DNA from: Halosimplex litoreum | GTDB taxonomy: Archaea; Halobacteriota; Halobacteria; Halobacteriales; Haloarculaceae | DNA: 64,000 nucleotides | Direction: 5' to 3' | Assembly (NCBI RefSeq): GCF_016065055.1 | Contig: NZ_CP065856.1 | Span: forward strand, 3,719,836 to 3,783,835 | In this document: positions 6,281-27,280 of the stretch, piece after piece | Numbering within the stretch: the stretch's first letter is position 1 | Layout: each line of letters opens with the position of its first letter | Notes under the pieces: generated by a model | Seen by the model: only the letters and a program-made list of their open reading frames with translations | Databases searched by the model: none | Told to the model about the DNA's origin: nothing | Translations under genes and position numbers: made by a program

Positions 6281-7351
6281 TCACCCTCGGCGCTCGGGAG
6301 CCGACGCCTCCTGCCCGGCCGGGGATTCCTGGGGACGGTCACCCGTGGCCCCGTCGGCACCGTTCGCGCTCTCGGCTGCGTTGGCGCTCTCGGACCCGTC
6401 GACGCGGGCCCTGGCACGGGCGTCGTCAGCGGTCAGCCGCTCGGTGAGGTCTTCGAGCTGGCGAGTCTGCTCGCGGTTGACCGTGACGATCATGTCCGAG
6501 AGCACGCCGAACATCAGCAGCTGTACGCCGAAGATGATCGCCAGGCCGCCGAGGAAGGCGATCACCTCGTGGGAGGTGTTGGCCGTGATCCACTCGACGG
6601 CGACGTACGTGCCGAGGACGAGGCCGACGACCAGGCTGACGGTGCCGACGCTCCCGAAGTAAAATAGGGGGTTGTTCGTCTTCGCCATCTTGTACAGCGT
6701 CAGGATGATGTCGGCGCCGTCGCGGAACGGTCGGAGGTTCGTCTCCGAGTCGTCCGGACGAGCGAGATAACGGATCGGAACGACCTCCGTCCGGACGTTG
6801 TGTTTGACGCACTCGACGGCCATCTCCGTCTCGACGCCGAAGTAGTCCTCGGTCAGCGAGATGCGACTGATGCTCTCGCGAGTCAGCGCTCGGTAGCCGC
6901 TGAGGATGTCCTGGTAATCCCGGCCGTGGATGATCGAGAACGCCCGGTTGATGACGCCGTTGCCGAACTCGTTGAGTCGGGTCATCGCACCCTCCTCCAT
7001 GTCGGCGAAGCGGTCACCGATGACGTGGTCTGCCCGCCCCTCGAAGATCGGTTCGAGCATCGCCGCGGCGTCCTCGGCGCGATACGTCTGGTCGCCGTCG
7101 AGCATGAGGACGACCGGCGCGTCGGTCCGCTCGAAGCCTTCCTGCAGCGCCTGGCCTTTCCCCTTCGAACCGCGTTGCTGGACGACGCGCGCACCTTTCT
7201 CCTCGGCGATCGACTGCGTGCCGTCGGTCGACCCCCCGTCGATTACGAGAATGTCGTCGAACCCCTCGGCTGCGAACGACTCGACGACCGGCCCGATCGT
7301 CTCGGACTCGTTCAGCGTGGGAACCAGCACGCAGACGTCGTCGTACTCCAT
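6281..7351 (-). CDS. aglJ: dolichyl-phosphate hexosyltransferase AglJ-like (GT2)
   Basis: This 356-aa family 2 glycosyltransferase has nucleotide-sugar motifs VPTLNESETIG and VIDGGSTDGT, and the DxD-type motif LMLDGDQTY. Acceptor-side motifs DILSGYRALTR and ETEMAVEC follow, then two C-terminal membrane helices (about residues 235-300) and a low-complexity acidic/Ala tail. This layout matches AglJ of Haloferax volcanii, which adds the first hexose to dolichyl phosphate in S-layer N-glycosylation. A T-rich TATA-like box (about 7374-7383) lies ~28 nt before the ATG. It sits at the edge of a glycosylation island that also includes aglG and aglB. Confidence 0.82.
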   Translation of the reverse strand: MEYDDVCVLVPTLNESETIGPVVESFAAEGFDDILVIDGGSTDGTQSIAEEKGARVVQQRGSKGKGQALQEGFERTDAPVVLMLDGDQTYRAEDAAAMLEPIFEGRADHVIGDRFADMEEGAMTRLNEFGNGVINRAFSIIHGRDYQDILSGYRALTRESISRISLTEDYFGVETEMAVECVKHNVRTEVVPIRYLARPDDSETNLRPFRDGADIILTLYKMAKTNNPLFYFGSVGTVSLVVGLVLGTYVAVEWITANTSHEVIAFLGGLAIIFGVQLLMFGVLSDMIVTVNREQTRQLEDLTERLTADDARARARVDGSESANAAESANGADGATGDRPQESPAGQEASAPERRG

Positions 7352-8682: not shown

Positions 8683-10101
8683 TCACCCCGGCGACCGGCC
8701 CACGAGCGAGGCGGCCTTTGTCCGAATACGCTCGGAGACGACGAACAGTGCGGCCGTGTAGACGACACTCGCGCTCACGACGAGCGCGAGCGTAGCGACT
8801 GGCCCGCCGGGAGCGTACTTCAGAACCGCTGCGAGGTACCCGACCATCACGAGCGTGGCGAGTGACTGCGCTCCGAAGGCGCGCCAGGGGACCGCCGGTC
8901 GACCGATCAGGCGCGCCAGCGAGGCGTAGCCCAGCACGAGTAGGCCGACGCCCGCTAGCAGCGTCGCGACTGCCGCACCCATCCAGCCGAACTGCCAGAC
9001 GAGGATGACGTTGAGCACGACGTTCACCCCGATGAACAGGCCGCTGATGCGGAACGCGACGTCCGGGCGGTCGATGGCGTTGATCGCGGAGATAAATTGC
9101 TCGCCGAACGCCGCGAACAGCCGCGCGAGGATCAACAGCAGGAGGATCTGCGCCCCTTGGCGGAATTCGGTGCTGTAGACGGCGAGCACCCGCGGTCCGA
9201 CCATCGCCGCCCCCGCGAGGCCCGGGATCGAGAACACCGCCGCGAAGACGAGCCCCTCGTTGAGGTAGTGGTGGATCTGCTCGTAGTCGTCCTCAACACT
9301 GAGCTCGCTGAACTCCGGGAACAGTGTCTGCTCGATGGAGTTGCTGACCAGGATGAGCGTCGACGCCAGCGTCCAGGCGACCTCGTAGATGCCGATCAGC
9401 GACGACGAGACGAAAAATCCCAGGACGATGGTGTCGGTCCAGCCGAACGTCCGGCCCTTGAGCTTGCCCATCCAGGAGTAGCGGACGAACTCGCCGAGGT
9501 GACGGACGTGGTGAGCGTCGGGCATCCGCGGCCACGAACGGGCGACGAACAGCCCGACGAGCGAGCCGACGAACAGCGAGAGCGCGTGCCCGAGCACCAG
9601 TCCCGTGACGACGAACCCCAGCAGGAGCAGGGCGACCTGCGTGACGGTGCGGAAGATGCGTTCGAACCCCTGGACCGACCCGGAGCGCGCGACCTGCTTC
9701 TCGCCCTTGAGGACGCCCTTGACGAGCCGGAACGTGCCAGCCGCGGCCAGCAGGAGCGCGAACTCGACGGCGACGGGGGCCCCGACGTAGCGGTCAAGGT
9801 GTGGGCCGACCAGCAGCGTCACCGCGACCAGGCCGGCGATGGCGCCGCCCATGAGGACAACCCCGGCCCCGAAGTACTGCTCGGGCGCGCGCCCCTCGCT
9901 CATCCGCTTGGTCACCGCCGCCCCGATGGCCGCCGCGGGGATAATTACCATGAACAGCACCGCGACGGCCTTCGAGTACCGGCCCAGCGGCGCCGAACCG
10001 AGGACCGAGGCGATGGCGTAGGTGGCGAAGAACCCGGACAGCGAGACGACTGCCTGCGAGGCGAAGTGCAGGGCGGCTTCCTTCCCGAGCTTCGGGGCCA
10101 T
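8683..10101 (-). CDS. polysaccharide/lipid-linked glycan flippase (Wzx/AglR-like)
   Basis: The 472-aa integral membrane protein has about 12-14 hydrophobic helices and the oligosaccharide-flippase (MATE/MOP superfamily) layout: an N-terminal HFASQAVVSLSGFFATYAIASVLG and paired six-helix halves. Haloarchaeal members such as AglR are implicated in moving dolichol-phosphate-linked sugars across the membrane. Its position between glycosyltransferases and AlkP-fold enzymes supports a role in surface glycan export. A TATA-like box (about 10121-10131, minus strand) lies ~25 nt upstream of the ATG. Substrate is unknown. Confidence 0.85.
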   Translation of the reverse strand: MAPKLGKEAALHFASQAVVSLSGFFATYAIASVLGSAPLGRYSKAVAVLFMVIIPAAAIGAAVTKRMSEGRAPEQYFGAGVVLMGGAIAGLVAVTLLVGPHLDRYVGAPVAVEFALLLAAAGTFRLVKGVLKGEKQVARSGSVQGFERIFRTVTQVALLLLGFVVTGLVLGHALSLFVGSLVGLFVARSWPRMPDAHHVRHLGEFVRYSWMGKLKGRTFGWTDTIVLGFFVSSSLIGIYEVAWTLASTLILVSNSIEQTLFPEFSELSVEDDYEQIHHYLNEGLVFAAVFSIPGLAGAAMVGPRVLAVYSTEFRQGAQILLLLILARLFAAFGEQFISAINAIDRPDVAFRISGLFIGVNVVLNVILVWQFGWMGAAVATLLAGVGLLVLGYASLARLIGRPAVPWRAFGAQSLATLVMVGYLAAVLKYAPGGPVATLALVVSASVVYTAALFVVSERIRTKAASLVGRSPG

Positions 10102-10234: not shown

Positions 10235-11128
10235 ATGTATTCGCTCGATCAGGTGCGCAAGGGGCTGACCGACCCCGGGATGGCACTTCAGGAGCTGAAC
10301 CGCTGGTACTACGCCGCCCGCAACGACGGCGGGTACCACGACCGGGGGGTCGACATCTTCGGCGCCGACTGGGACAACCTTGTCATCCTTGACGCCTGTC
10401 GCTACGACGAGTTCGCCGCCCGTGCGGACCTGCCGGGCACGCTCGAAAAGCGCCGCTCGCGAGCGAGTATGACTCACGAGTGGGTCCGAGCCAACTTTGA
10501 GGGCAAACAGCTCCACGACGTGGTTTACGTCTCCGCGAGCGGCCGGTTTCTCCACGCACAGCAGGATCTTAACGCCGAGGTCCACGAGTTCGTCAGCCTG
10601 ATCGACCAGAGCGAGGCCTACGGCGAGGCGAAGGTCTGCCCCCCCGACGTCGTCACCGATCGCGCTCTCGAAGCCGCCCACGAGCACCCTGACAAACGGC
10701 TCATCGTTCACTACCTCCAGCCCCACATGCCGTATCTCGGCCCCTCCGGCGAGACCTTCGAGTACCACTCGTCACTCGACGAATCGGTCAGGCGCAGTAG
10801 CGTCAGCGACGAGGCGCTCCGGCGGGCCTACCGGGAGAATCTGGACATGGTGCTCGACGACGTGTCTAAACTATTCGAGCAGTTACAGGGCAAGACGGCC
10901 GTCACGTCTGACCATGGGGAGCTGCTCGGCGAACGCGAGCGACCGCTCCCGGTCAAACGTTACGGCCATCCCTCGGGCATCTATGTCCCCGAACTGGTCG
11001 AGGTGCCCTGGCATATCTACACGAACGGTGGCCGCAAGGAGGTTGTAGCCGAGCCGCCCGAGGCGGAACTGGAGTACGACGAGGAGGCGATCAAGGACCA
11101 TCTCAAGGACATCGGCTACGCCGTTTAG
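10235..11128 (+). CDS. AlkP-superfamily (sulfatase-like) protein, short form
   Basis: This 297-aa protein has alkaline-phosphatase superfamily metal sites: an early Asp in NLVILDACRYDEF and a late AVTSDHGELLGER. HYLQPHMPY is the conserved core strand. The putative nucleophile region reads SRASMTHEWVR, with Thr/Ser and no Cys-X-Pro-X-Arg sulfatase signature. No signal peptide is present, so it is probably cytoplasmic. It ends HLKDIGYAV, a variant of a C-terminal motif shared with four other genes in this island. It could be a phosphotransferase or esterase acting on nucleotide-sugar or lipid-linked glycans; this is inference. Its 3' end overlaps the convergent gene by 4 nt. Confidence 0.82.
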   Translation: MYSLDQVRKGLTDPGMALQELNRWYYAARNDGGYHDRGVDIFGADWDNLVILDACRYDEFAARADLPGTLEKRRSRASMTHEWVRANFEGKQLHDVVYVSASGRFLHAQQDLNAEVHEFVSLIDQSEAYGEAKVCPPDVVTDRALEAAHEHPDKRLIVHYLQPHMPYLGPSGETFEYHSSLDESVRRSSVSDEALRRAYRENLDMVLDDVSKLFEQLQGKTAVTSDHGELLGERERPLPVKRYGHPSGIYVPELVEVPWHIYTNGGRKEVVAEPPEAELEYDEEAIKDHLKDIGYAV

Positions 11129-12504
11129 ACGTAGCCCAAGTCCTCTAGCTGGCGCTCCATCGCGTCGGTAAACTCCCCCTCTACTCCCTCGGTCACGGGC
11201 TTCGCGGTCGTGTCGAGCCACTCCTCGGCGACCGCCGCCAGGTCCCCGTCGACCTCAGGGTAGTCCTCGGCCATGTCGGTCTCCTCGTCGGGTAGCTCGA
11301 ACAGCTCCGATTTCCTCTCGCTGGTCAGGTGTTTAAATTCCTGCGTTCGCACCGCCGTGAGCATCGTCTCGTGGTACCGCTCGGTGTCGAAGTCGGGGTT
11401 GTGTCCGAGGTATGGCTCGAACTGGCCGGCCTCGCGCTGGGAGAAGGCGTGGTCGCGCTCGCCGCTCCGCAGGTCGATCCCGTCGGTAGAGACGGTGTCG
11501 GCGTCAGCGATCTCCAGCAGCGTCCGCATCACGTCGATGTGCTGGATGAGATCGTCGGACTCGACGGTCGTGTCAAGCCCGTGGGTGATCATCGGGACGT
11601 TGACCAGCCCGTCGTGGAGCGCGAGGTTATGCCCCAGCAGTCCCAGTTCGCCGAACAGCTCGCCGTGGTCGGCGGTCACGACGAATATCGTCTCACCGAT
11701 GTCGAGCGACCGGACGAACTCGAACAGCCGCCCGATCATCTCGTCCGTGTAGGCGATCTCGGCGTCGTACATCGCTTTCAGGACCGCGAGATCCTCGCCG
11801 GTGAAGTCACCGAAAGCGATCCTCTCTTTCTGCGAGTAGTGCAGCTCCATCGCCCGCTCGCTAGCCTCGGCTGGCGAGACGTCCAGATCGTCGGTGTATC
11901 GGTCGAGATACGGCAGCGGCGGGTAGTACGGTCGATGGGGCTCGTTGTAGTGGAGATAAAAGAACGAGGGGTCGGAGCGGTCCGCGGCCGATTGGAGCCA
12001 CCGCTTGGCCACCTCGTTCATCAGGAACGGTGTGGCGTGTTTCGCGGTGTTGGTCGTCAACCCCGCCGAGTGGCGCCGCAGGTTGAAGAAATACTTCAGC
12101 AGCGTTCGTGGCCCGGCCCGGTGGATCGTCGAGGCGGCGAGCCACTGGAACTGGTCGAACCCGCGGTCGAGGTCGGTCGCGGAGCTGACGAAGGAGTTCC
12201 GGGAGAGACAGGCCGTGTGATAGCCGGCGTCGGAGAGCAGTTCGGCGACCGTGGGTATCGAGCCGGGCACCGTCTCGCCCGTGATCCCGACGGTATTGTG
12301 CGATGGCGGCGTGCAGGTGAGGATCGCACCGCTGGCCGGCAGCGTCGACTTCGAGTGGCCGATGCAGTTGCGGTAGGCCTGTCCGTCGGGTTCGTCGGCG
12401 ATCCGCTGGATCCGCGGCGTCGTGTCGCGGCTGTAGCCCGCCATTGACGTGTGGTCTTGCCGGACGCTGTCCAGCGTCACCCAGACGATGTTCGGGCGAT
12501 TCAC
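11125..12504 (-). CDS. AlkP-superfamily (sulfatase-like) protein
   Basis: This 459-aa sulfatase-fold protein has metal-binding Asp12 in NIVWVTLDSVRQDH and the late motif VVTADHGELFGELG..GH. The signature position reads STLPASGAILTC. The residue aligned with the sulfatase formylglycine Cys is Thr, and the following Arg is missing, so formylglycine chemistry is doubtful. FFYLHYNEPHRPYYPP is the substrate-side loop typical of the family. The GTG at 12504 is preferred because the TATA-like box (12531-12537) lies 29 nt upstream; another GTG at 12516 would be too close. There is no signal peptide. It ends QLEDLGYV. Confidence 0.85.
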   Translation of the reverse strand: MNRPNIVWVTLDSVRQDHTSMAGYSRDTTPRIQRIADEPDGQAYRNCIGHSKSTLPASGAILTCTPPSHNTVGITGETVPGSIPTVAELLSDAGYHTACLSRNSFVSSATDLDRGFDQFQWLAASTIHRAGPRTLLKYFFNLRRHSAGLTTNTAKHATPFLMNEVAKRWLQSAADRSDPSFFYLHYNEPHRPYYPPLPYLDRYTDDLDVSPAEASERAMELHYSQKERIAFGDFTGEDLAVLKAMYDAEIAYTDEMIGRLFEFVRSLDIGETIFVVTADHGELFGELGLLGHNLALHDGLVNVPMITHGLDTTVESDDLIQHIDVMRTLLEIADADTVSTDGIDLRSGERDHAFSQREAGQFEPYLGHNPDFDTERYHETMLTAVRTQEFKHLTSERKSELFELPDEETDMAEDYPEVDGDLAAVAEEWLDTTAKPVTEGVEGEFTDAMERQLEDLGYV

Positions 12505-12530
12505 ACCCGAGCCCACTCCGCGGAGAATGG

Positions 12531-12537
12531 TATAGTT
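12531..12537 (-). promoter_or_regulatory. TATA-like box deciding the start of the 11125-12504 gene
   Basis: AACTATA (minus strand) is 29 nt from the GTG at 12504 and only 17 nt from the GTG at 12516, so it favours the shorter product. Confidence 0.5.
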
Positions 12538-12554
12538 GTTGCTTCGCCGCCCGG

Positions 12555-13559
12555 TCAGTCACCGCTCGCCGCCCCCGAGGACCCGCCCCGGAGCGCCCGC
12601 AGCCCGGACTGCTGGACCCGCTCCAGCAGCCGGAACGCCCGCCGGTTGCCCGCCGGGAGCAGCGACAGCCCGAACAGCGCCAGCGTCTGCGCGTCGCGCT
12701 TGCCGGACCGCAACACGTCGAGGAAGACGCGGCGCGCCTCCGCGGTCCGCCCCGCCTGGAACAGGTGTTTGCCGTACCGGTAGGCGGCCATCCGCTCGCG
12801 CTCGACCCGATAGGACCGCAATTCGGGGATGCGCTCGACCAGATCGTCGATGGCCGCCAGTTCGTTCTCGTACATCATGTCGGGGTCGGCGGTCAGCGAA
12901 TCCGCCCGGCGGCGCTTGAACGCCAGCGACTCCAAGATCATCGCGGGGATTCCGTTCCGGAACAGCCGCACCCACAGGTGGGGGTCCTCCCTGGCCTGAA
13001 GACGCTCGTCGAAACGCTCGTCCTCGAAGCACTCGCGGCGAGCCGCGACGGTGACCGTCGGCACGCCGTGGCCGGACCGGAAGAACGCCACGTGGTGGCG
13101 GTCGGGGTCCTCGACGGGGAGCGCCGATAGCTCCGTCCGCGAGCCGTCGGGTTCGATCACGGTGACGTTCGAGTAGACCACGTCGGCCTCGCCGTCGAGC
13201 GCGGCCACCTGCCGTTCGAGCTTCGCGGGCGCGTAGAAGTCGTCCGCGTCGAGGAAGGCGATAACCTCCCCTTCGGCCTCGTCGAGGCCTCGGTTGCGCG
13301 CCGCCGCGACGCCGTTCGGCGGCTCGTAGACGTACCGCGCCCACTCCAGCGGGTCGAGCAGGGTCTCGAGCCACTCGACCCCGGAGCTGTCGACGACGAC
13401 CACTTCGAGGTTCGCGTAGGTCTGCTCGCTCAGGCTCTCCAGCGCCCGTTCGATGTACCGGGCGTCCTCGTAGGTCGGCGTGACGACCGAAACGAGCGGC
13501 CCCTCGGTCTCCTGCAGCGTCGTCGGCAGCGAGATCTCGGGTGGATCGCCGTCGTCCAT
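12555..13559 (-). CDS. family 2 glycosyltransferase
   Basis: The 334-aa GT-A protein has LVSVVTPTYEDARYIERALES at its nucleotide-binding N-terminus and VIAFLDADDFYAP as the DxD metal site. Acceptor-side EDPHLWVRLFRN follows, and then a C-terminal helical region (YRYGKHLFQAGRTAEARRVF..) resembling TPR-like repeats. No membrane segment is visible. I used the ATG at 13559 (MDDGDPPEI). An in-frame TTG at 13613 would add 18 residues with no family support. It probably transfers a sugar during surface glycan assembly on the cytoplasmic face. Donor and acceptor are unknown. Confidence 0.86.
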   Translation of the reverse strand: MDDGDPPEISLPTTLQETEGPLVSVVTPTYEDARYIERALESLSEQTYANLEVVVVDSSGVEWLETLLDPLEWARYVYEPPNGVAAARNRGLDEAEGEVIAFLDADDFYAPAKLERQVAALDGEADVVYSNVTVIEPDGSRTELSALPVEDPDRHHVAFFRSGHGVPTVTVAARRECFEDERFDERLQAREDPHLWVRLFRNGIPAMILESLAFKRRRADSLTADPDMMYENELAAIDDLVERIPELRSYRVERERMAAYRYGKHLFQAGRTAEARRVFLDVLRSGKRDAQTLALFGLSLLPAGNRRAFRLLERVQQSGLRALRGGSSGAASGD

Positions 13560-13710
13560 GTCCGTTCGTTCAAGCGGGTCGGCTTCACTCTTGTGGTCCG
13601 TGGAAATGCGCAATTACGTCGGTTTCAGGCTCGGACGCGTCGATCGAACGCCCGACAAGGTTCGGACAGATCCAAAAGCGGTAGATAGGTGGCCCGCTTT
13701 GCCGAGCACA

Positions 13711-15117
13711 ATGGACCGTAACGTCGTACTGCTCGTGTTGGACACGGTCCGGAAGGACTATTTCGACGAGCACGCGCCGCGACTGCGGGCGAAGTCGGAC
13801 CTCTCGTTCGAGCAGTGCCGAGCCGCGAGTTCGTGGAGCACGCCCAGTCACGCGTCGATGATGACCGGGACGCTCCCGTCGGAACACGGTATCCACGCGC
13901 GCAACGTGGACTTCACCGGGCTGCGTCGGGAGGACACCTTCCTCGCGGATCTCCCCGGATACACTGCGAGCGGCGCCAGTACCAACATCTTCGCCGGGAC
14001 TCCGTTTGGCTTCGACGGCGTCTTCGACTCCTTCGCCAGCATGTCCCGCCACGCCCTGTTCCCCGACGGGCTGGACATCGACAAGTTCCTCAGCGAGACC
14101 GACCGCGATAGCAGCGGACGCTACGTGGAGTTCTTGCGGGCGGTCGCCGGCCACGAACACCCCGTAAAAAGCGTCCTGAACGGCGTCTTCCTGAAGCTCA
14201 ACGACGTGCTCGAACCGCTCCCACTCCCGCGGCTGTACGACTACGGCACGGCGACCGTCTCCCGCGAAGTACTCAGCCAAGTCGACGACAGCGAGGGTCC
14301 TCGGTTCGTCTTTGCCAACTACATGGAGGCACACACGCCGCTGCAGGCCACCCGCGTCTACGACGGGTCGCTGCACGGCGTGCCGACCGACTGGTCGTCG
14401 AACGAGGTCGACATCTTCGGCATCAACAACGCCGACGACATGGCGCAGTTCGACGAATATTTCAGGAACTTCCGGCAGCTGTACGGGACCGCCATCGACT
14501 ACCTCGACCGACGGCTGGTCGCGCTCGTCGACGAGATACACGAACGGACCGACCGGGAGACGACCGTCGTCGTCACCGCCGACCACGGCGAGAACCTCGG
14601 GACCGAGGCCGACGACCACCTGCTCGGCCACGTCAGCACGCTTACCGACGCGACCCTCCACGTGCCCCTCGAAGTGTTCAATCCGCCCGAGGGCTACGAC
14701 GAGACTGTCGACAACTACGTCTCACACCTCGACCTCCCCGAACTGCTCGTCGCGCTGGCCGAGGGAGAGGTCGCAAACATTCGGCGCGAGACCGTTCCAG
14801 CCGAGCGGATCGGACTCGGCCTCTCCCACGACCCCTCCAACTACGAATACTGGGATCGGATGATCCGCTGTGCCTACCGGGACGAGGAGAAGTTCGAATG
14901 GGACTCGCTTGGCAATCGCTACCGCCACCGCATCGATTACGATCGGGCGTCCTGGCAGGAGCGCGTTGAGACCGATGTCGAGGTGCCCTCGTGGGCGCTG
15001 TCGCCGTTCCCCGAAGACCTCGAGAGCTACGACAAGCGGGCCCGAGGCGGCGGCACTGACGCCGAGGAGATGGACGAACACACCCGCGACCAGCTCGAAG
15101 AACTCGGCTACCTCTGA
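13711..15117 (+). CDS. AlkP-superfamily (sulfatase-like) protein
   Basis: The 468-aa protein has the sulfatase fold: Asp11 in NVVLLVLDTVRKDYF, VFANYMEAHTPLQ, and VVTADHGENLGTE..LLGH. The signature region reads SSWSTPSHASMMTG. It keeps the Ser-Thr-Pro-Ser order but has His where sulfatases have Arg, and Ser in place of Cys. It has no signal peptide and ends QLEELGYL. The open frame extends ~230 nt further upstream, but the ATG at 13711 puts the catalytic strand at the normal distance from the N-terminus. It probably modifies or hydrolyses phospho- or sulfo-esters in the surface glycan pathway. Confidence 0.85.
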   Translation: MDRNVVLLVLDTVRKDYFDEHAPRLRAKSDLSFEQCRAASSWSTPSHASMMTGTLPSEHGIHARNVDFTGLRREDTFLADLPGYTASGASTNIFAGTPFGFDGVFDSFASMSRHALFPDGLDIDKFLSETDRDSSGRYVEFLRAVAGHEHPVKSVLNGVFLKLNDVLEPLPLPRLYDYGTATVSREVLSQVDDSEGPRFVFANYMEAHTPLQATRVYDGSLHGVPTDWSSNEVDIFGINNADDMAQFDEYFRNFRQLYGTAIDYLDRRLVALVDEIHERTDRETTVVVTADHGENLGTEADDHLLGHVSTLTDATLHVPLEVFNPPEGYDETVDNYVSHLDLPELLVALAEGEVANIRRETVPAERIGLGLSHDPSNYEYWDRMIRCAYRDEEKFEWDSLGNRYRHRIDYDRASWQERVETDVEVPSWALSPFPEDLESYDKRARGGGTDAEEMDEHTRDQLEELGYL

Positions 15118-15185
15118 CCGGCGGTCGGTCGTCCCGGAAGACCGAACTCGACCGATCGCGACCTCGGCCGACCGCGCTCCGCTCG

Positions 15186-16286
15186 CTACTCCACGTAGCC
15201 AAGGTCGCGCAACTGCCCCTGCAGTTCTTCGGGCACCTCGTCCTCGACTTCGGTCTTGTCGCCGCGGTGTTCGAAGGTCACGTCGGCGTCGCGGCTGACG
15301 AGCCGGCGCTCGAAGTCCTGCCAGAGGACGGTCGCCTGTTCGTGCCACGGCGCGATCGTGATCGTGTAGTCGGTCTCGGTTTCCAGCAGATCGTTGCCGT
15401 CCCAGCGGTCGGCCACTTCGGCGCCGGCGCTGGCGGCGATGGTCGGCGTCAGGTCCAGCAGGCTGCACGGGCCCTCGGCGTCGATCCCGTCGAAGACGAC
15501 CGGCACCTGGACCAGGCAGTCGTCGACGCGACGCAGTTGTGGCTGGTGGAAGTAGTAGCCCTCGTCGCCGAATCCCTCGCCGTGGTCGGCGGTGAAGACG
15601 AATTTGGGGTCGTCGCTGTCGATCCCGTCGAGGAGGTGGCGGACGTTCTCGTCGGCCCGTTCCAGCGAGTCGCAGTACTTGCGCTCGATCTCCGCCTCCT
15701 CGGCGTCGGTCAGTTGCTCGGGCTTGAAGAAGGCTTTCTGGTCGAGTTGCTCGGAGACGGCGTCGTCGCCGGCGCCGTAGGGCCGGTGGGTCTCCATGAG
15801 GTGGACCCACAGAAAGCGGGGCCCGTCGGCGGCGTTGAACCACTCGATGGCCTGGTCGACGACCTCGCGGTCGCGCGGTCGGTTCTCGCTTTTGGCGTGG
15901 GGCGGGTAGAACTTGTAGTAGATCCGCCGCAAGAGGTCGAAGTTAGCGAGGTACTGTCGGAGGCCGCTGCCGCGGTTGCCGGGCTCGATGAAGCTGTCGT
16001 AGCGGTCGAACCCCTCCGCGAAGCCGAACGTGGCGTCGGTGTTGGGGTTCGGAGAGCACCCCAGGCAGGTGTAGCCGGCCGCCGAGAGTGTCTCGGCGAG
16101 CGTCGGCTCGTTCACCCGCCCCGTCAGAACCGACTCGTAACTGGACGCGTGGATGCTCGCCAGACTCGGCCGCGTGTACTGGGCGGCCGTCATGCCGGTC
16201 TCGACGTCGAACGAGGAGACGAACTCCATCTCGTCGACGTAGTCGGCGCGCACCGAGTCGGCGGTGACGAAGACGATGTCGTCCAT
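15186..16286 (-). CDS. AlkP-superfamily (sulfatase-like) protein
   Basis: This compact 366-aa member starts directly with the metal-binding strand (MDDIVFVTADSVRADY, Asp10). The nucleophile region reads YTRPSLASIHAS, which points to Thr rather than formylglycine-Cys. FLWVHLMETHRPYG and FVFTADHGEGFGDEGYYFH complete the active site. It has no signal peptide and ends QLRDLGYVE. It is tandem on the minus strand with the downstream GT2-DUF2304 gene (about 80 nt apart), suggesting cotranscription. Function in glycan modification is inferred from context. Confidence 0.84.
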   Translation of the reverse strand: MDDIVFVTADSVRADYVDEMEFVSSFDVETGMTAAQYTRPSLASIHASSYESVLTGRVNEPTLAETLSAAGYTCLGCSPNPNTDATFGFAEGFDRYDSFIEPGNRGSGLRQYLANFDLLRRIYYKFYPPHAKSENRPRDREVVDQAIEWFNAADGPRFLWVHLMETHRPYGAGDDAVSEQLDQKAFFKPEQLTDAEEAEIERKYCDSLERADENVRHLLDGIDSDDPKFVFTADHGEGFGDEGYYFHQPQLRRVDDCLVQVPVVFDGIDAEGPCSLLDLTPTIAASAGAEVADRWDGNDLLETETDYTITIAPWHEQATVLWQDFERRLVSRDADVTFEHRGDKTEVEDEVPEELQGQLRDLGYVE

Positions 16287-16367
16287 TCGTTCGCGTACTC
16301 TCCCAGCGTCGGGATGACGTTTTTGGTCGGTGGCATCGGCGCCGATGGATCCGCGGACGGTGGACGC

Positions 16368-17441
16368 TCAGCGGATCCAGGTGACGACGATGGTCCGCGC
16401 GAGCCCGACGGCGTAGCCCAGCCCCGGCTTCTTCGTCTCGCCGGCCTCGCGCTCGCGGATTGTGACCGGCACCTCGCGGATCCGGAACCCGTTCTTGCGG
16501 GCCTCGATGATGAGCTCCGGGGCCGAGAACCGCTCTTCGGTGAGCGTCAGTTCGTCGAGCCGCGACCCGCGGATGGCCCGGTAGCCGTTCGTGCAGTCGG
16601 TGATCTCCGCCTTGGTGAGGCGGTTGATGAGCCACGTGAACGCGCGGATGCCGCCGCGGCGCGTCATCGAGTTGCCCGAGCGGTCGCGGCCGCGGTAGCG
16701 CGACCCCATCACGTACTCGGCCTCGCCGTCGACGACCGGCGAGACGAGCGCGTCGAGCTGGCCGACGGGGTGTTGCCCATCGGCGTCCATCGTCACGACC
16801 ACGTCAGCGCCGTGTTTGCGGGCGATCTCGAAGCCGGTCTTCAGGGCGCCGCCCTGGCCCTGGTTGAGCGGGTGTTCGACGACGATGGCGTCGTGGGCCT
16901 CGGCCGTCCGGCGAGTCCGGTCGTCGGAGCCGTCGGAGACGACGACGGCCCGCACGTCGTGGTCGCGGACGGCGTCGGGTAGCGACGCCAGCACGTCGCC
17001 GACGGTGTCGGCCTCGTTGTACGCCGGGATCACGACGTAGACCGTCCGACTGTCCGGGGGCTCCTCCAGCGGCGCTTGCTCGACCGCCAGCTCGCGCGTG
17101 AGTTCGTTGACGACCGACCGCGTCGCACCGATCCGCCCGATCAGGTAGAGGATCAGGAACAGAAACGCGGCGTTGGTGAAGATCTGAACGAGCAGGAAGC
17201 GACTCTCCAGATTGAACGCAGTCGCCAGCGCACCGTACAAGCCCGGTGCCAGACCGATGGTCAGCAAGCCGACCGCGAGAGCGATGGCGAGGCCGAACTC
17301 CGCCTTCGAGAAGGTCGTCCGGTAGCGGTCGAACCCCCACAGGAGCGCGACCGCCGCCAGAGCGACGAACAACAGCGTCAAGGCCTCGTTGTCCAGCCCC
17401 GGGAGGGCACCGAGAGCGAACCCGACGGGAACCACTGCCAT
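16368..17441 (-). CDS. DUF2304-GT2 fusion glycosyltransferase
   Basis: The 357-aa protein begins with three to four membrane helices resembling DUF2304 (residues 5-105, including RFLLVQIFTNAAFLFLILYL). A family 2 glycosyltransferase domain follows: VYVVIPAYNEADTVGDVL, VVSDGSDDRT, VVVTMDADGQHP, and GSRYRGRDRSGNSMTRRGG, then a DCTNGYRAIR acceptor motif. The catalytic half resembles dolichyl-phosphate mannosyl/glucosyltransferases. In most genomes DUF2304 is a separate partner gene, so the fusion ties the two functionally. A clear TATA box (17469-17477) lies just upstream, making a leaderless message likely. Confidence 0.87.
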   Translation of the reverse strand: MAVVPVGFALGALPGLDNEALTLLFVALAAVALLWGFDRYRTTFSKAEFGLAIALAVGLLTIGLAPGLYGALATAFNLESRFLLVQIFTNAAFLFLILYLIGRIGATRSVVNELTRELAVEQAPLEEPPDSRTVYVVIPAYNEADTVGDVLASLPDAVRDHDVRAVVVSDGSDDRTRRTAEAHDAIVVEHPLNQGQGGALKTGFEIARKHGADVVVTMDADGQHPVGQLDALVSPVVDGEAEYVMGSRYRGRDRSGNSMTRRGGIRAFTWLINRLTKAEITDCTNGYRAIRGSRLDELTLTEERFSAPELIIEARKNGFRIREVPVTIREREAGETKKPGLGYAVGLARTIVVTWIR

Positions 17442-17451
17442 ACGTGCTAGT

Positions 17452-17461
17452 ACTCGCGAGT
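17452..17461. promoter_or_regulatory. 10-bp palindrome at the DUF2304-GT2 promoter
   Basis: ACTCGCGAGT is a perfect palindrome between the TATA box and the start codon, overlapping the predicted transcription start. It could be an operator. The regulator is unknown. Confidence 0.35.
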
Positions 17462-17468
17462 GTGTGCC

Positions 17469-17477
17469 GTTTATATT
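17469..17477 (-). promoter_or_regulatory. TATA box for DUF2304-GT2 gene
   Basis: AATATAAAC on the minus strand is about 32 nt before the ATG at 17441, giving a leader of only a few bases. Confidence 0.6.
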
Positions 17478-17607
17478 CCTCGATCCGTGTTCATATCTCT
17501 ACTGATATGTCCGCGACTCAGACGGTCGCTCGGATTATCGGACGTCGACCGCTACCCGCATCACCCAAGTGGGACGGGAGTGAAGCGGGAGGTGAGTCGA
17601 GCCGCCG

Positions 17608-18486
17608 ATGTCCCAGCCACAGGCCGCCCTCTCGGTCGACTTCGAGCACTTCACCCACCTGCCGGCCTACCGCGGCGCGAGTGGAACGACCGACCGGCCG
17701 GCGGTGGGGCTCGGAGGCGTCACGGCCCTCCTCGACGCCCTCGACGAGGCGATCGGGGCGGCGACGTTCTTTACCGTGGGCGAGCTGGCCGACGAGCACC
17801 CGCGCGTGATCGAGCGCATCGCGGCGGCCGGTCACGAGGTCGCCTCGCACACTCACACCCACCGGCACCTCTCTGAACTCGACGAAGGTGAGCGCCGCGA
17901 CGAACTCGCGCGTTCGAGAGAGCGCCTCGAAGCCGTCACCGGCGAGTCGGTCACCGGCTTCCGCGCCCCCTCGTTCGACATGGGGCCGGACCACTTCGAG
18001 GCGCTGGCCGACGCGGGCTACGACTACGACTCCAGCGTCGTCGCCTGTCGGTCGATCCCGGGCTGGTACGGCGGCGAGTTCGACGCCGAGCGCCCGACGG
18101 CCGCGAGGGCGGTCGAACCGACGGCGCCGGACGGACTCGTCGAAGTTCCCGTCTCGGTGATGCCGCGCCTGCGCCTCCCGCTGACGGGCACCTGGATCCG
18201 GTTTTTCGGCGTCTCCTACACGATACTGGGGATGCGACTGCTCGCGCGCCGGGGGATCGCGCCGGTGCTGTACGTCCACCCCTGGGAACTCGTCGACCTC
18301 CCCGCCGTCGAGGGCGTGCCCAGTCGTGTATACGTCCGGACGGGCGCGTACATGCGGCGAGCGGTCCGGCGGATCCTCGCCGAACCGTTCGAGTTCGTCA
18401 CCGTTCGGGAACTGGCGGACGGGGCCGAGTCGCGTGCACGGACGACCAGTGACGGGACGCGGACAGTGCGGAGTGACCGAGCGTGA
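17608..18486 (+). CDS. polysaccharide deacetylase family protein
   Basis: The 292-aa protein has the NodB-type deacetylase motifs. Catalytic/metal Asp is in ALSVDFEHFTH. HTHTHRHLSEL gives the His-X3-His zinc pair, and GFRAPSFDMG is the conserved motif 3. A late YVHPWELVD supplies the C-terminal His. It probably removes acetyl groups from a GlcNAc-containing surface glycan or a lipid-linked sugar. There is no signal peptide, so it would act in the cytoplasm. The stop overlaps the GTG of the next gene (GTGA), which indicates translational coupling. Confidence 0.87.
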   Translation: MSQPQAALSVDFEHFTHLPAYRGASGTTDRPAVGLGGVTALLDALDEAIGAATFFTVGELADEHPRVIERIAAAGHEVASHTHTHRHLSELDEGERRDELARSRERLEAVTGESVTGFRAPSFDMGPDHFEALADAGYDYDSSVVACRSIPGWYGGEFDAERPTAARAVEPTAPDGLVEVPVSVMPRLRLPLTGTWIRFFGVSYTILGMRLLARRGIAPVLYVHPWELVDLPAVEGVPSRVYVRTGAYMRRAVRRILAEPFEFVTVRELADGAESRARTTSDGTRTVRSDRA

Positions 18487-19547
18487 GCGATGGCGAGGGC
18501 GACCTGGACGGCGGGTCCTGGCGCCGCCGCGGGCTCTCGCTCGTCCAGTGGACCCTCGCGGTCGGCGCCTTCTGGTACGTCGCCAACGGCGTTGACTGGT
18601 CGACGACGCGCGCCGAACTGGTGACGCTCGACGCCGCCGTGATCGCGGGCGTCCTCGCGATTACCGCCGCCGAGTTCGGCTCGCGCTTCGCGATGTGGTA
18701 CGCGCTGTTGAACGGGCTCGCGCCGACGGGCCTGCGGACGACCGCCAGCGTCGATCTGGTAATCAAGTTCGTCAACCACGTCGTCCCATCCAAGGCGTCG
18801 GGCCACTCCGTCGCGCCGCTGGTCGTCCGCCACTACACCGAGGCCGACTGGGCGGAGGCGGTGAGCGTCTCGGGCCTCAACACAGGCCTCTACGCCGCCC
18901 TCTACGGACTCGTGGCGCTGGCAGGGCTCGGCCTCTTCGCCCCCAGACTCGGCGACGGGTGGCTCCTCGTCATCCTCCTGTCGACGGGTGTCTACCTCGT
19001 CGCGGGTGCGCTCGTCCTGCTGGCCGGCCGTCGGATGGACGCCGCCGGCCGTCTGGCGAGTCACCTCGGGGGTCTCCTGCGTCGGGTTCCCCGCGTAGGT
19101 GCCCGACTCGCCGGTGTCGCTGGCGCGCTCCCGTCGTTCACTGCCGATTCTGCGGGCGTGTTCCGCCGACTCTCCGCGACGCCGTCGGTCGTCGGCACGT
19201 ACGCGCTGGGCTGGGCGGGGACGCTGCTGGTCTTCCCCGGACTCCGGGTGTGGCTGTTGCTCACCGCCCTCGGCGGCGAGTTCTCGCCGGCCGCGCTCCT
19301 GCCGGTCGTGCTCGTCACGGCTTACAGCGTGACCGTCCTGCCGCTGACCCCTGGCGGCGTCGGCGTCGCGGAGGCCTCGGCGACTGCCGTCCTCGTCGCC
19401 CTCGGCGTCGCCCCCGAGCTCGCACCGATCGTCGTCCTGCTCGATCGGACCTTCGGCGTCTACCTCCCCGCCGTACTGGGCTGGCTCCCGGCGGCGAGCC
19501 TCGATTTCGGGGACCTGTTCGCCCGTAGCGACGGGGACAGCGAGTAG
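18483..19547 (+). CDS. lysylphosphatidylglycerol synthase TM / UPF0104 family membrane protein
   Basis: This 354-aa protein has about eight membrane helices. It carries the conserved FVNHVVPSKASGHSVAPLVVRHY block near the start and the C-terminal LPLTPGGVGVAEASATAVLVALG signature of the UPF0104/LPG-synthase membrane domain. In Haloferax AglD a related membrane domain is fused to a GT2 domain. Here the GT2 is encoded separately by the neighbouring minus-strand gene. It may help a glycosyltransferase use a lipid-linked donor; this is inference. The GTG start overlaps the previous stop. Confidence 0.85.
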   Translation: MSDGEGDLDGGSWRRRGLSLVQWTLAVGAFWYVANGVDWSTTRAELVTLDAAVIAGVLAITAAEFGSRFAMWYALLNGLAPTGLRTTASVDLVIKFVNHVVPSKASGHSVAPLVVRHYTEADWAEAVSVSGLNTGLYAALYGLVALAGLGLFAPRLGDGWLLVILLSTGVYLVAGALVLLAGRRMDAAGRLASHLGGLLRRVPRVGARLAGVAGALPSFTADSAGVFRRLSATPSVVGTYALGWAGTLLVFPGLRVWLLLTALGGEFSPAALLPVVLVTAYSVTVLPLTPGGVGVAEASATAVLVALGVAPELAPIVVLLDRTFGVYLPAVLGWLPAASLDFGDLFARSDGDSE

Positions 19548-19622
19548 CGAGCACCGGCTCGTCCGGGTACCGCGGTCGACCCCGGAGACCGCCCTATACA
19601 GCGCCTACCGTTCGCACGAACG

Positions 19623-19632
19623 AAATGTATTT
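19623..19632 (+). promoter_or_regulatory. TATA-like box, AlkP/phosphodiesterase gene
   Basis: AAATGTATTT is centred ~29 nt before the ATG at 19658. This supports that ATG over the in-frame ATG at 19625, which lies inside the box. Confidence 0.55.
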
Positions 19633-19657
19633 CCGCCCGCCTCGCGGGATTCCGACA

Positions 19658-21205
19658 ATGACGCGGACCTTCGCCGTCGGGCTCGACGGCGCCAGCTGGC
19701 TGCTCACCGAGCCCTGGATCGAAGAGGGCGTCCTTCCCAACCTCGCCGCCCTCCGCGAGTCGGGCACGTATGCCACCAGCCGCAGCTGCCTCCCGCCGGT
19801 CACCTACCCCAACTGGAAGTGCTACGCCTCGGGGAAAAATCCAGGCAAGCACAGCGTCTACTGGTGGGAGCGAATCGACCTGGCGGACGAGCGCATCGAC
19901 ATCATGAGCGGGAGCGACTACGAGACCGCCGAGCTGTGGGACTACCTCGACGCCGAGGACCAGCGGGCGGCCGTCGTCAACATGCCGTCGATGTACCCGC
20001 CCCGCGAGATCGGCGGCTACGTCGTCTCGGGCGGCCCGGACGCCGTCGAGGGCGAGTACCGCTCGCTCGACACCGGCTACACCTACCCGCCCGAGTTCGA
20101 GGAGACACTCGCCGAGCGCTACGACTACCAGGTCCATCCCGACCCGTTGCTGTCCTCGAACGACGAGCGCGGCGCCGAAGTCGACGAGATCCTGCGACTG
20201 TTCGAGCTCCGATTGCAGGTCGCGAAGGACCTCTTTCTGGAGGAGGACCTGGCGTTCACCCACGTCACCCTCTTTTACCTGAACGTCCTCCACCACTTCT
20301 TCTGGGACGAGGAGCCGACCAGGCGGGCGTGGCAACTGGTCGACGAGTGGCTCGGCGAACTCGCGGCGCTGGAGGACACCAACCTCGTGGTCATGTCCGA
20401 CCACGGCGCCGCGGCGACGACGACGGAGTTCTACGTCAACGAGTGGCTCGCCGAGAACGGCTATCTCACCCGTGCCGGCGGCGTCGAGGACTACTTCCAG
20501 CGCGTGGGGCTGACCCGCGAGAACGCGCTCGCTGTCGCCAAGCGGTTCGGCCTCGTCGACGTCCTCGCCGAAACGGTCCCCGAGAGCGTCCAGCAACTCG
20601 TCCCCCAGAGCGCCGGCGCCAAGCGCGAACGCAAGATGGAGCTGATCGTCCCCGAGCAGACGAAGGCACTCGCCAGCGGCCAGGGACCGGTCTACGTCAA
20701 CCCGCGCTTCGACGTGGAGTCCGTGCGCGAGGAGCTCATCGCCGACCTCGAAGCGGTCACGGACGAGAACGGCGAGGCGCTGTTCACCGGCGTCTACCGG
20801 GCCGAAGAGGTGTACGACGGCCCCTACGTCGACATCGGTCCGGACGTGGTCGTCGACCAGCGGCCGGGCGTCCACGTCAACGACGGGATGGGCGGCGACG
20901 CCGTCCAGACCGAGCCCGACCGCTGGGCCGCCGAGAACACGCCGACGGGCATCTTCGTCGCCGACGGGCCGGACTTCCGAAATCGCGGCGAGATCCCCGA
21001 GATCGACATCCGCGACATCGCGCCGACGATTCTCGCCGCTCATGGCGTCGACATCCCGAGCGATATGGACGGGGAGGTGCTCGATATCTTCGCCGACGAC
21101 CCCGACGTGGGCACGCAGGAGCCGATCGACCACGAAGACGCCCGCGCGGGCGGGCCGTCCGACGAGGTGGCCGACCGGCTGACCGAACTCGGCTATATGG
21201 AGTGA
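19658..21205 (+). CDS. type I phosphodiesterase/nucleotide pyrophosphatase-like AlkP protein
   Basis: The 515-aa protein belongs to the phosphodiesterase branch of the AlkP superfamily. Asp10 is in TFAVGLDGASW, and the nucleophile Thr lies in PPVTYPNWKCYASGKNPGKHS. HVTLFYLNVLHHFFWD, NLVVMSDHGAAATT and the C-terminal GPYVDIGPDVVVDQRPGVHV block complete the metal site. It has no signal peptide and ends DRLTELGYME, the C-terminal motif shared with the other four AlkP-fold genes. It could hydrolyse or transfer a phosphodiester-linked group in surface glycolipids. It lies in a five-gene same-strand run. Confidence 0.86.
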   Translation: MTRTFAVGLDGASWLLTEPWIEEGVLPNLAALRESGTYATSRSCLPPVTYPNWKCYASGKNPGKHSVYWWERIDLADERIDIMSGSDYETAELWDYLDAEDQRAAVVNMPSMYPPREIGGYVVSGGPDAVEGEYRSLDTGYTYPPEFEETLAERYDYQVHPDPLLSSNDERGAEVDEILRLFELRLQVAKDLFLEEDLAFTHVTLFYLNVLHHFFWDEEPTRRAWQLVDEWLGELAALEDTNLVVMSDHGAAATTTEFYVNEWLAENGYLTRAGGVEDYFQRVGLTRENALAVAKRFGLVDVLAETVPESVQQLVPQSAGAKRERKMELIVPEQTKALASGQGPVYVNPRFDVESVREELIADLEAVTDENGEALFTGVYRAEEVYDGPYVDIGPDVVVDQRPGVHVNDGMGGDAVQTEPDRWAAENTPTGIFVADGPDFRNRGEIPEIDIRDIAPTILAAHGVDIPSDMDGEVLDIFADDPDVGTQEPIDHEDARAGGPSDEVADRLTELGYME

Positions 21206-24921: not shown

Positions 24922-26073
24922 CTACCGGCGACGACGCCGGACGACCCGCTGTAGAATATCTCGATACCGTTCCTGGGAAGCCTCGAAACTGTATTCGTCC
25001 TCGATCAGTTCGCGCCCGTTGCGGCTGATCGCGGGCAGGTCCTCGCGCTCCAGAACCGCCAGCAGTTCCCGGCGGATGTCCGCGGGGTCGGTGCTGTCCA
25101 TCAGGAAGCCGGTCTCCCCGTCGCGGACCACGTCCGGGACGCCCGAGACGGGCGTCGCGTAGACGGGCGTCCCGCAAGCGAGCGCTTCGAGGATCGTCGT
25201 CGGCAGCCCCTCCGTCGGCTCGGAGGGGAGGACGACCAGTCGCAACCGGTCGAGTTCGGCGGGCACGTCGTCGTGGTCGACCCACCCGCGCATCTCGACC
25301 TGGCCGGCCTCGATCTCCGCGGCGAGTTCCGTCTCCAGCCACTCCCGTAAGTCGCCGTCGCCGACGAAGGTGAAGGTCACGTCGTCGGGCAGCTCCTTCG
25401 CCGCGGCGGCGAGTTCGCGGACGTTCTTCTCCTCGTCGAGGCGACCGAGGAAACCGACACGACGGCCCCGCTCTTCCAGGGGCGTCCGCACGCGGAAGTC
25501 GTCCGTCCGGACGTAGCGCGCGCCGGTGGGGTACACGTCCGTGTCGTCGGGGTCGAGATCGAGTTGCTCGGCCATCGACGGCGTGTAGGTCACGACCCCG
25601 TGGGCTGCCGCGAAACCCGCGCGTTCGAGCGCGCTGACGAGCCCCGCCAGCGTCCGCGCGACCGGCGAGGGAAGCGACTCCTCCCAGGCGATGCGCAGGG
25701 TCAGCGGCACGTCGCCGCGCGGTTCAACGAGGACCGTCTTCCCGATAGCGCGGGCGAACAGGATGGGGAGCAGGTACGAAGTCGCACCGTAGAAGAGGAC
25801 GACCGCCTCCTCGCGACCGGCGACCACCTGGCACATCCGGAGCTGGTTCAGGAGGAAGCGGACGGCGGCCACGGCGATGGAGTCGCCGGCCCCCTTCCGG
25901 GTGAGTTCGACCAGCTCGTGTCGGTCGCGGATCTCCGAGTCGGCGGGCAGATCCAGGGTGACCAGCGCGACGCCGGTCACCGCCGAGAGGATGTCGAGCA
26001 GGCTCCGCGTCGCGTTCTCGCCGGCCGCCGCCAGCGGGTGGGTGACGACGCACACGTCGGGGAGGTCCGCCAT
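24922..26073 (-). CDS. family 4 (GT-B) glycosyltransferase
   Basis: The 383-aa protein has an N-terminal acceptor domain (VCVVTHPLAAAGENATRSLLDIL). Its C-terminal GT-B donor domain shows RRVGFLGRLDEEKNVRELAAAAKELP, TFVGDGDLREWLE and the E-X7-E motif region EPTEGLPTTILEALACGTPVYATPVSG. Members transfer sugars from nucleotide donors. It has no signal peptide. A TATA-like CGTTAAGC (about 26098-26105) lies ~29 nt before the ATG. It sits immediately after aglG on the same strand, consistent with a role in the N-glycan or another surface glycan. Confidence 0.9.
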   Translation of the reverse strand: MADLPDVCVVTHPLAAAGENATRSLLDILSAVTGVALVTLDLPADSEIRDRHELVELTRKGAGDSIAVAAVRFLLNQLRMCQVVAGREEAVVLFYGATSYLLPILFARAIGKTVLVEPRGDVPLTLRIAWEESLPSPVARTLAGLVSALERAGFAAAHGVVTYTPSMAEQLDLDPDDTDVYPTGARYVRTDDFRVRTPLEERGRRVGFLGRLDEEKNVRELAAAAKELPDDVTFTFVGDGDLREWLETELAAEIEAGQVEMRGWVDHDDVPAELDRLRLVVLPSEPTEGLPTTILEALACGTPVYATPVSGVPDVVRDGETGFLMDSTDPADIRRELLAVLEREDLPAISRNGRELIEDEYSFEASQERYRDILQRVVRRRRR

Positions 26074-27100: not shown

Positions 27101-27280
27101 GTCGATTCATGGACCGGGGTCCGGGATAGGCTTTCCGTCTGGCCGTCCGCGACAGGCCGCGTTTCGAAGCTGTTCGGAGAATCGAGAACCGCAAGACCGC
27201 GGTTGAATCGGGGGTCGACGGGGAGTCCGATTTATCGGAAGATGACAAGGCTTATGCGCGCGATGGGACTGGTTCCGTCA

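Follow-up and report, generated by a model that had tools for sequence, protein, structure and literature searches.

Five alkaline-phosphatase-fold proteins in an N-glycosylation island of Halosimplex litoreum are most likely cytoplasmic glycan sulfotransferases and share a C-terminal tail with sulfate-activating enzymes

The window analysed here, a 64,000-nucleotide stretch of Halosimplex litoreum (contig NZ_CP065856.1, positions 3,719,836 to 3,783,835), contains an N-glycosylation island in which five genes, termed A to E, encode proteins of the alkaline phosphatase (AlkP) superfamily. We propose that these proteins most likely work in the cytoplasm as sulfotransferases on dolichol-linked N-glycans, adding sulfate rather than removing it. 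That AlkP-superfamily proteins can serve as glycan sulfotransferases is in general already known, since deletion and expression experiments with Halobacterium genes, as well as work on Agl7, have been published. New here is an L-x-x-[LI]-G-Y tail on the AlkP proteins that is otherwise found almost only on sulfate-activating or sulfate-transferring enzymes and points to a sulfation machinery so far undescribed as a unit. The explanation in its entirety, comprising sulfotransferases, adenosine 5'-phosphosulfate (APS) or 3'-phosphoadenosine 5'-phosphosulfate (PAPS) as donor, a CysD-like protein as supplier and docking through the tail, is one we consider probable.

A preliminary description of this DNA had placed five AlkP-fold genes between aglJ and aglG/aglB, interleaved with glycosyltransferases, a deacetylase and a flippase. 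All five open reading frames are present there, the products of aglJ, aglG and aglB exceed curated profile cut-offs, and the interleaving was borne out by Pfam and hydropathy (Table 1). The common fold held up as well: proteins B to D match PF00884 and E matches PF01663. Protein A stayed just below the PF00884 threshold (23.5 vs. 25 bits in Pfam) and was assigned through its AlphaFold2 model (predicted local distance difference test, pLDDT, 94.0; the input alignment included related loci), for which a search of solved structures returned EptA/MCR-1 first (4kav, VIA Z 16.1, 202 residues aligned, 2.9 Å). The model of B, likewise built from an alignment that included related loci, matched choline sulfatases and phosphonate monoester hydrolases (PMH). 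Thr80 of A (SM-T-HEW, codon 10472-10474) and Thr54 of B (TLPASG) are the predicted nucleophiles, each sitting at a helix start in its model, as is usual for the AlkP superfamily; Asp53, Asp226 and His227 are the predicted metal ligands of A.

Active-site alignments extended this picture. The nucleophile column holds 49 Thr and 22 Ser among 71 of 71 rows for A and its relatives (family A), and 22 Thr and 9 Ser in all 31 complete rows of the PF00884-type alignment, in which one further row was truncated; Cys occurs in neither. Asp53, His164, Asp226 and His227 (A numbering) are invariant. The C/S-x-P-x-R signature of sulfatases is thus replaced by Thr or Ser without the Arg in all five proteins and all complete aligned relatives, which agrees with the motifs given earlier (SMTHEW, TLPASG, STPSH, TRPSL and TYPNW). 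The loss of the Arg had been framed as a departure from sulfatases, and this applies less well to E: a Thr nucleophile without Arg is normal in the phosphodiesterase branch of nucleotide pyrophosphatases (NPP), to which E belongs. Another detail needs amendment, as the proteins were said to start directly with the catalytic strand and in A this strand is preceded by 44 residues. The predicted lack of a signal peptide was confirmed: the maximal 19-residue mean hydropathy over the first 60 residues is 0.19-0.59 in the five proteins, vs. 2.6 in the flippase candidate, and hydropathy profiles revealed neither signal peptide nor transmembrane segment in any of them.

The genome encodes a formylglycine-generating enzyme (FGE) with the expected Cys motif and, outside the window, three CxPxR sulfatases (CTPSR in locus L001, CLPSR in L004 and CAPSR in L005). 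The cell can therefore make formylglycine, and the five proteins, which do not rely on it, form a distinct class. In Halocatena marina, a plasmid cluster (L284:1125-32607) combines several CxPxR sulfatases with FGE and a GH78 enzyme in a catabolic setting and looks like an archaeal locus for the degradation of sulfated polysaccharides.

The closest precedent comes from Halobacterium salinarum (PMC11980604). In its aglB cluster, VNG1056C, VNG1057C and VNG1063H are annotated as alkaline-phosphatase-domain proteins, and deletion combined with mass spectrometry identified VNG1056C (Agl30) and VNG1057C (Agl31) as AlkP-superfamily 'sulfatase-like' N-glycan sulfotransferases, the disulfated glycopeptide dropping 250-fold and >50-fold, respectively. 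Either protein alone, when provided to Haloferax volcanii, led to sulfation of that organism's own glycan. VNG1057C is cytosolic and VNG1056C membrane-associated, and sulfation occurs at the dolichol-phosphate stage, ahead of transfer to protein (PMC11980604). In the low-salt pathway of Haloferax volcanii, Agl7 contributes to the sulfation of lipid-linked sugars (PMC3871713). Our genes likewise encode AlkP-superfamily proteins inside an aglB/aglJ cluster, and the sulfotransfer step suggested for them is taken by analogy from the Halobacterium proteins. The earlier proposal, which favoured cytoplasmic phospho- or sulfotransferases or esterases with nucleotide- or lipid-linked glycans as substrates over secreted sulfatases, is in its essentials supported by these published deletions, and the structure predictions and active-site alignments it had called for never placed Cys at the nucleophile position.

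Comparable gene arrangements exist in the genus Halobacterium. Locus L174 reads aglJ, MOP flippase, family A, AlkP, C-like, glycosyltransferase, aglB; its C-like protein is 48% identical to window C (which reaches 48% and 39% identity to proteins of Halobacterium-genus agl loci), and its MOP flippase aligns with our flippase candidate at 28% over 198 amino acids (aa). Next to family A, the AlkP gene of this locus shares only ~25% identity with B and D. An H. salinarum S-layer peptide quoted in PMC11980604 had its best match among whole genomes at 83%, with no exact match in the genome contigs; in the Halobacterium-genus genome with this closest peptide (locus L166), family A adjoins aglG and C-like and B-like genes lie nearby. 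More broadly, family A has relatives in 335 of 392 haloarchaeal genomes, including 13 of the 13 Halobacterium-genus genomes tested. Around 79 named copies, GT4 and GT2 glycosyltransferases, flippases, sugar epimerases and deacetylases predominate, and none of the AlkP neighbours of family A carries CxPxR. Two more loci of the present genome (L175, L176) pair family A with PF00884-type genes. Within the island, five AlkP genes occur in ~12 consecutive genes; given roughly 20 such genes among ~4200, we estimate the probability of this by chance at ~1e-9, so the clustering is far above chance. Besides, 22 contigs labelled viral (L203-L224) encode family-A relatives at 25-35% identity, some with an LGY tail, and three of them (L217, L205, L218) also hold PF01507/CysD-type genes; a search with gene C gave no matches in viral contigs, nor did one with gene A in phages.

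At their C-termini, the five window proteins all carry L-x-x-[LI]-G-Y followed by one or two residues. We counted this tail in 2,384 distinct genes (duplicates removed) from haloarchaeal loci that had been chosen around AlkP, CysD-like and ApsK/Sat genes; the count covers these loci and not full proteomes, so the 2115 'other' genes are neighbours of the selected ones and not a random proteome. The tail is present on 193 of 209 AlkP proteins (among the 16 exceptions, several are cut by the locus end), on 15/15 CysD-like ATP-sulfurylase homologues and on 8/9 APS kinases linked to Sat. Among the other genes it occurs once in 2115, and the single carrier is a PF00685 sulfotransferase. It was found on none of 12 Sat proteins, none of 24 members of a second ApsK-like family and none of eight complete CxPxR sulfatases. 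Comparing CysD-like proteins and Sat-linked ApsK with other genes, a Fisher test gives p ~4e-52, which is indicative rather than a strict probability, given the non-independence of related sequences. In alignments, bacterial APS kinases reach no further than residue 177 of 205, and the tailed end therefore looks like an addition. The ending appears widespread in the CysD family, as three bacterial CysD proteins end in GYF, GYM and GYF and one bacterial CysD-like protein in LGYL. A general AlkP feature was considered and rejected, given that CxPxR sulfatases in catabolic surroundings lack the tail; such sulfatases occur on two haloarchaeal plasmids, where one set has an FGE gene nearby. Two family-A members (L168:9754-10608 and L169:9701-10549) end right after a VPW motif without the tail and may form a subfamily with another role. 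Together, these distributions suggest that the tailed enzymes belong to one sulfation pathway, in which the tail would have a docking role.

How sulfate is activated in these organisms bears on this proposal. Sat (PF01747) occurs in 12 of 392 haloarchaeal genomes, the present one not among them. APS kinase exceeds its cut-off in 31 of 384, and these 31 include neither the present genome nor those of the genus Halobacterium. None of 14 genomes tested contains a protein passing the CysD profile cut-off, but all 14 encode a CysD-like protein of ~323 aa that ends in KEDLMERLRDLGYM throughout and has CysD as its only relative of solved structure. No cysN gene was seen beside it in the annotated loci, where no search was aimed at CysN. 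In Natrinema pellirubrum (pNATPE01) the CysD-like gene adjoins aglM, aglF, a flippase and glycosyltransferases; in Halopiger xanaduensis (pHALXA01) it lies among PF01663 proteins, sulfatases and GT4 genes, next to a PF01384 transporter. No such glycosylation or sulfatase neighbours were found around the remaining plasmid copies or around the one in the present genome. Sat-apsK operons share loci with tailed AlkP genes in four cases (L260, L262, L263, L266), and in the viral-labelled metagenomic contig L217 a CysD-like and a family-A gene, both tailed, lie within ~3 kb. In two Halobacterium-genus loci (L226, L227), the CysD-like gene adjoins genes of a phosphate-type (Pst/PhoU) ABC transporter.

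Several candidates for sulfate-activating enzymes were discarded. The PF01583 matches of this genome proved to be an FtsY/SRP-receptor-like protein and a small P-loop kinase rather than APS kinase, and its second PF01507 match is the tRNA thiolase NcsA. The second ApsK-like family (~285 aa) was rejected as the missing kinase: it has no tail and lacks AlkP neighbours in nearly all loci, and for this reason was used as a negative control. Its members (L239-L258, L269-L271) come from haloarchaea mostly without Sat, and one has a cytidylyltransferase-like domain; in L246 and L251 the gene adjoins a 407-aa gene ending in ELGYTEESEWI, in L246 a PF13469 sulfotransferase.

In the mechanism we envisage, the early Asp and the late Asp-His would hold the metal that activates the Thr or Ser nucleophile. 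The donor of the sulfo group would be an adenylyl sulfate, namely APS or, in those few species that have Sat and ApsK, PAPS. From it the nucleophile would accept the group and, by a ping-pong mechanism as in EptA, hand it to hydroxyls on the sugars of the dolichol-phosphate-linked glycan, which would only then be flipped and transferred by AglB. Activated sulfate might be supplied by the stand-alone CysD-like PP-loop protein encoded elsewhere in the genome, and the tail could bring the enzymes into contact with each other or with a partner that they share. That an island has several paralogues would be in keeping with their serving different sugars or positions. Nucleotide anhydrides are the substrates of NPP-type enzymes; E could be a further transferase or could turn over APS/PAPS. 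It is conceivable, and we put this forward tentatively, that haloarchaea, some bacteria and phages possess a tail-assembled sulfation pathway of CysD-like proteins, APS kinase where present, and AlkP or PF00685 sulfotransferases, with the AlkP enzymes using APS directly where Sat and ApsK are missing. We know of no record of direct APS use by an AlkP fold.

Some observations weigh against the sulfotransferase reading. L-x-x-L-G-Y is also a good helix-capping (C-cap) sequence. Profile searches found neither Sat nor a canonical APS kinase in this genome. The closest folds to family A are those of EptA/MCR-1, and these transfer phosphoethanolamine; S1 sulfatases trail by 1-2 Z units. The activity of the five proteins in this species is predicted from sequence and analogy, and their presumed orthology to VNG1056C/VNG1057C rests on synteny in congeners and published descriptions. 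Finally, VNG1063H, the third such Halobacterium gene, had no glycan-sulfation phenotype (PMC11980604).

The fold of family A would also suit phospho-group transferases of the phosphoglycerol or phosphoethanolamine type, decorating the lipid-linked glycan as EptA and LtaS act outside bacterial cells. The EptA/MCR-1 matches have a Thr nucleophile and an Asp-Asp-His metal site, some relatives are annotated 'LTA synthase family', and the lack of Sat and ApsK matches would fit too, as would the PF01663-type protein E, for which phospho-transfer may also be possible. We nevertheless think this quite unlikely, as AlkP proteins of a haloarchaeal agl cluster are published as sulfating glycans (PMC11980604) and the tail is not common to the phospholipid or nucleotide-sugar genes of the same loci. 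Sulfo- is preferred over phospho-transfer because CysD-like proteins, Sat-linked APS kinases and the PF00685 sulfotransferase have the tail too, and because gene clusters hold sulfate-activation genes beside these AlkP genes. Alternatively, the proteins could be cytoplasmic sulfo- or phosphoesterases that trim or proofread lipid- or nucleotide-linked intermediates: choline sulfatase and PMH, to which the PF00884-type proteins are close by sequence and fold, are hydrolytic, and an NPP-type protein such as E would naturally split nucleotide anhydrides. Yet loss of the Halobacterium proteins lowers sulfation and their addition to Haloferax creates it (PMC11980604), and the five lack the formylglycine Cys although the genome has FGE, making this reading very unlikely.

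A further alternative concerns the tail and leaves the sulfotransferase assignment untouched. The tail might do no more than stabilise the protein as a C-terminal helix cap, or might be ancestral to AlkP proteins and unlinked to sulfation; in both the A and B models it follows a short terminal helix (with an end confidence of ~80, lower than that of the core), and phage-type relatives without the tail exist. However, the same ending occurs on the unrelated folds of CysD-like PP-loop proteins, APS kinases and a PF00685 sulfotransferase, while 2114 of 2115 other genes and the CxPxR sulfatases lack it, so that we consider this rather improbable.

The remaining genes of the island are listed in Table 1, among them a TrmB-like gene that is a possible regulator of the island.

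Table 1. Genes and tails of the island (positions in the window) and the CysD-like gene located elsewhere in the genome
Feature	Position	Strand	Details
aglJ, S-layer glycoprotein N-glycosyltransferase	6281..7351	-	TIGR04182 449.7 bits, cut-off 325
TrmB-like sugar-sensing regulator	7752-8609	+	between aglJ and flippase candidate
MOP/Wzx-like flippase candidate	8683..10101	-	472 aa, hydrophobic
A, family A AlkP-fold protein	10235..11128	+	297 aa; AlphaFold2 model, family-A alignment
Tail of A	11102..11125	+	LKDIGYAV
B, PF00884-type protein	11125..12504	-	459 aa; Pfam E 8e-37; AlphaFold2 pLDDT 94.9; alignment
Tail of B	11128..11151	-	QLEDLGYV
GT2 glycosyltransferase	12555..13613	-	PF00535 E 2e-27
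C, PF00884-type protein	13711..15117	+	468 aa; Pfam E 1e-20; predicted nucleophile Ser43 (STPSH)
Tail of C	15091..15114	+	QLEELGYL
D, PF00884-type protein	15186..16286	-	366 aa; Pfam E 7e-20; alignment; predicted nucleophile Thr38 (TRPSL)
Tail of D	15189..15215	-	QLRDLGYVE
GT2 glycosyltransferase with DUF2304 region	16368..17441	-	PF00535 E 8e-25
Polysaccharide deacetylase	17608..18486	+	PF01522 E 1e-22
LPG_synthase_TM / flippase-like membrane protein	18483..19547	+	PF03706 E 2e-23; TIGR00374
E, PF01663 (NPP/type I phosphodiesterase) AlkP protein	19658..21205	+	515 aa; Pfam E 5e-32; predicted nucleophile Thr49 (TYPNW)
Tail of E	21176..21202	+	RLTELGYME
GT4 glycosyltransferase	24922..26073	-	NCBIfam GT4 matches
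aglG	26171..27100	-	NF041394 465.8 bits, cut-off 440
aglB oligosaccharyltransferase	27242..30448 (start approximate)	+	TIGR04154 (archaeo_STT3) 841 bits, cut-off 450
Stand-alone CysD-like PP-loop protein, tailed	L225:9037-10077 (G000:C1 ~3145.0-3146.1 kb)		

If correct, our proposal would have consequences beyond this island. The tailed CysD-like protein is a concrete candidate for the donor source in archaea that have sulfated glycans and in which no Sat or APS kinase has been found. A Thr/Ser nucleophile combined with the tail would offer a simple sequence rule to tell sulfate-adding from sulfate-removing members among the many proteins annotated as 'sulfatase-like hydrolase/transferase', and the widespread family A, usually called hypothetical, would gain a function. 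Besides, the presence of one tail on unrelated folds suggests that it serves as a docking signal in a small-molecule pathway; for prokaryotes this would be unusual.

Among known systems, S1 sulfatases, choline sulfatase and PMH share the PF00884 fold and the late Asp-His with B, C and D, and the A and B models have a sulfatase-like fold as well; those enzymes use formylglycine made from the Cys of C-x-P-x-R, whereas the window proteins have Thr or Ser and no Arg. The P-loop PAPS-binding fold of PF00685-type sulfotransferases is not seen in the five, which Pfam, and the models of A and B, place in the AlkP superfamily. EptA/MCR-1 are nearest in fold to family A, with which they have the Thr nucleophile and the Asp/His metal site in common, and their chemistry is that of a transferase; they are membrane-anchored, extracytoplasmic and use phosphoethanolamine as donor, and the window proteins lack such an anchor. 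CysD, the small subunit of ATP sulfurylase (PDB 1ZUN), is a relative of this genome's CysD-like protein (E 6e-11), although the haloarchaeal protein scores below the CysD cut-off. Agl7 of Haloferax volcanii resembles the proposed enzymes in the sulfation of lipid-linked sugars, a likeness known here by function (PMC3871713). Agl30 and Agl31, whose donor and any tail are not discussed in the available part of PMC11980604, come closest, being AlkP 'sulfatase-like' proteins of an aglB cluster, one of them soluble and cytosolic; the Halosimplex island differs from theirs in its five AlkP genes, including a PF01663 member.

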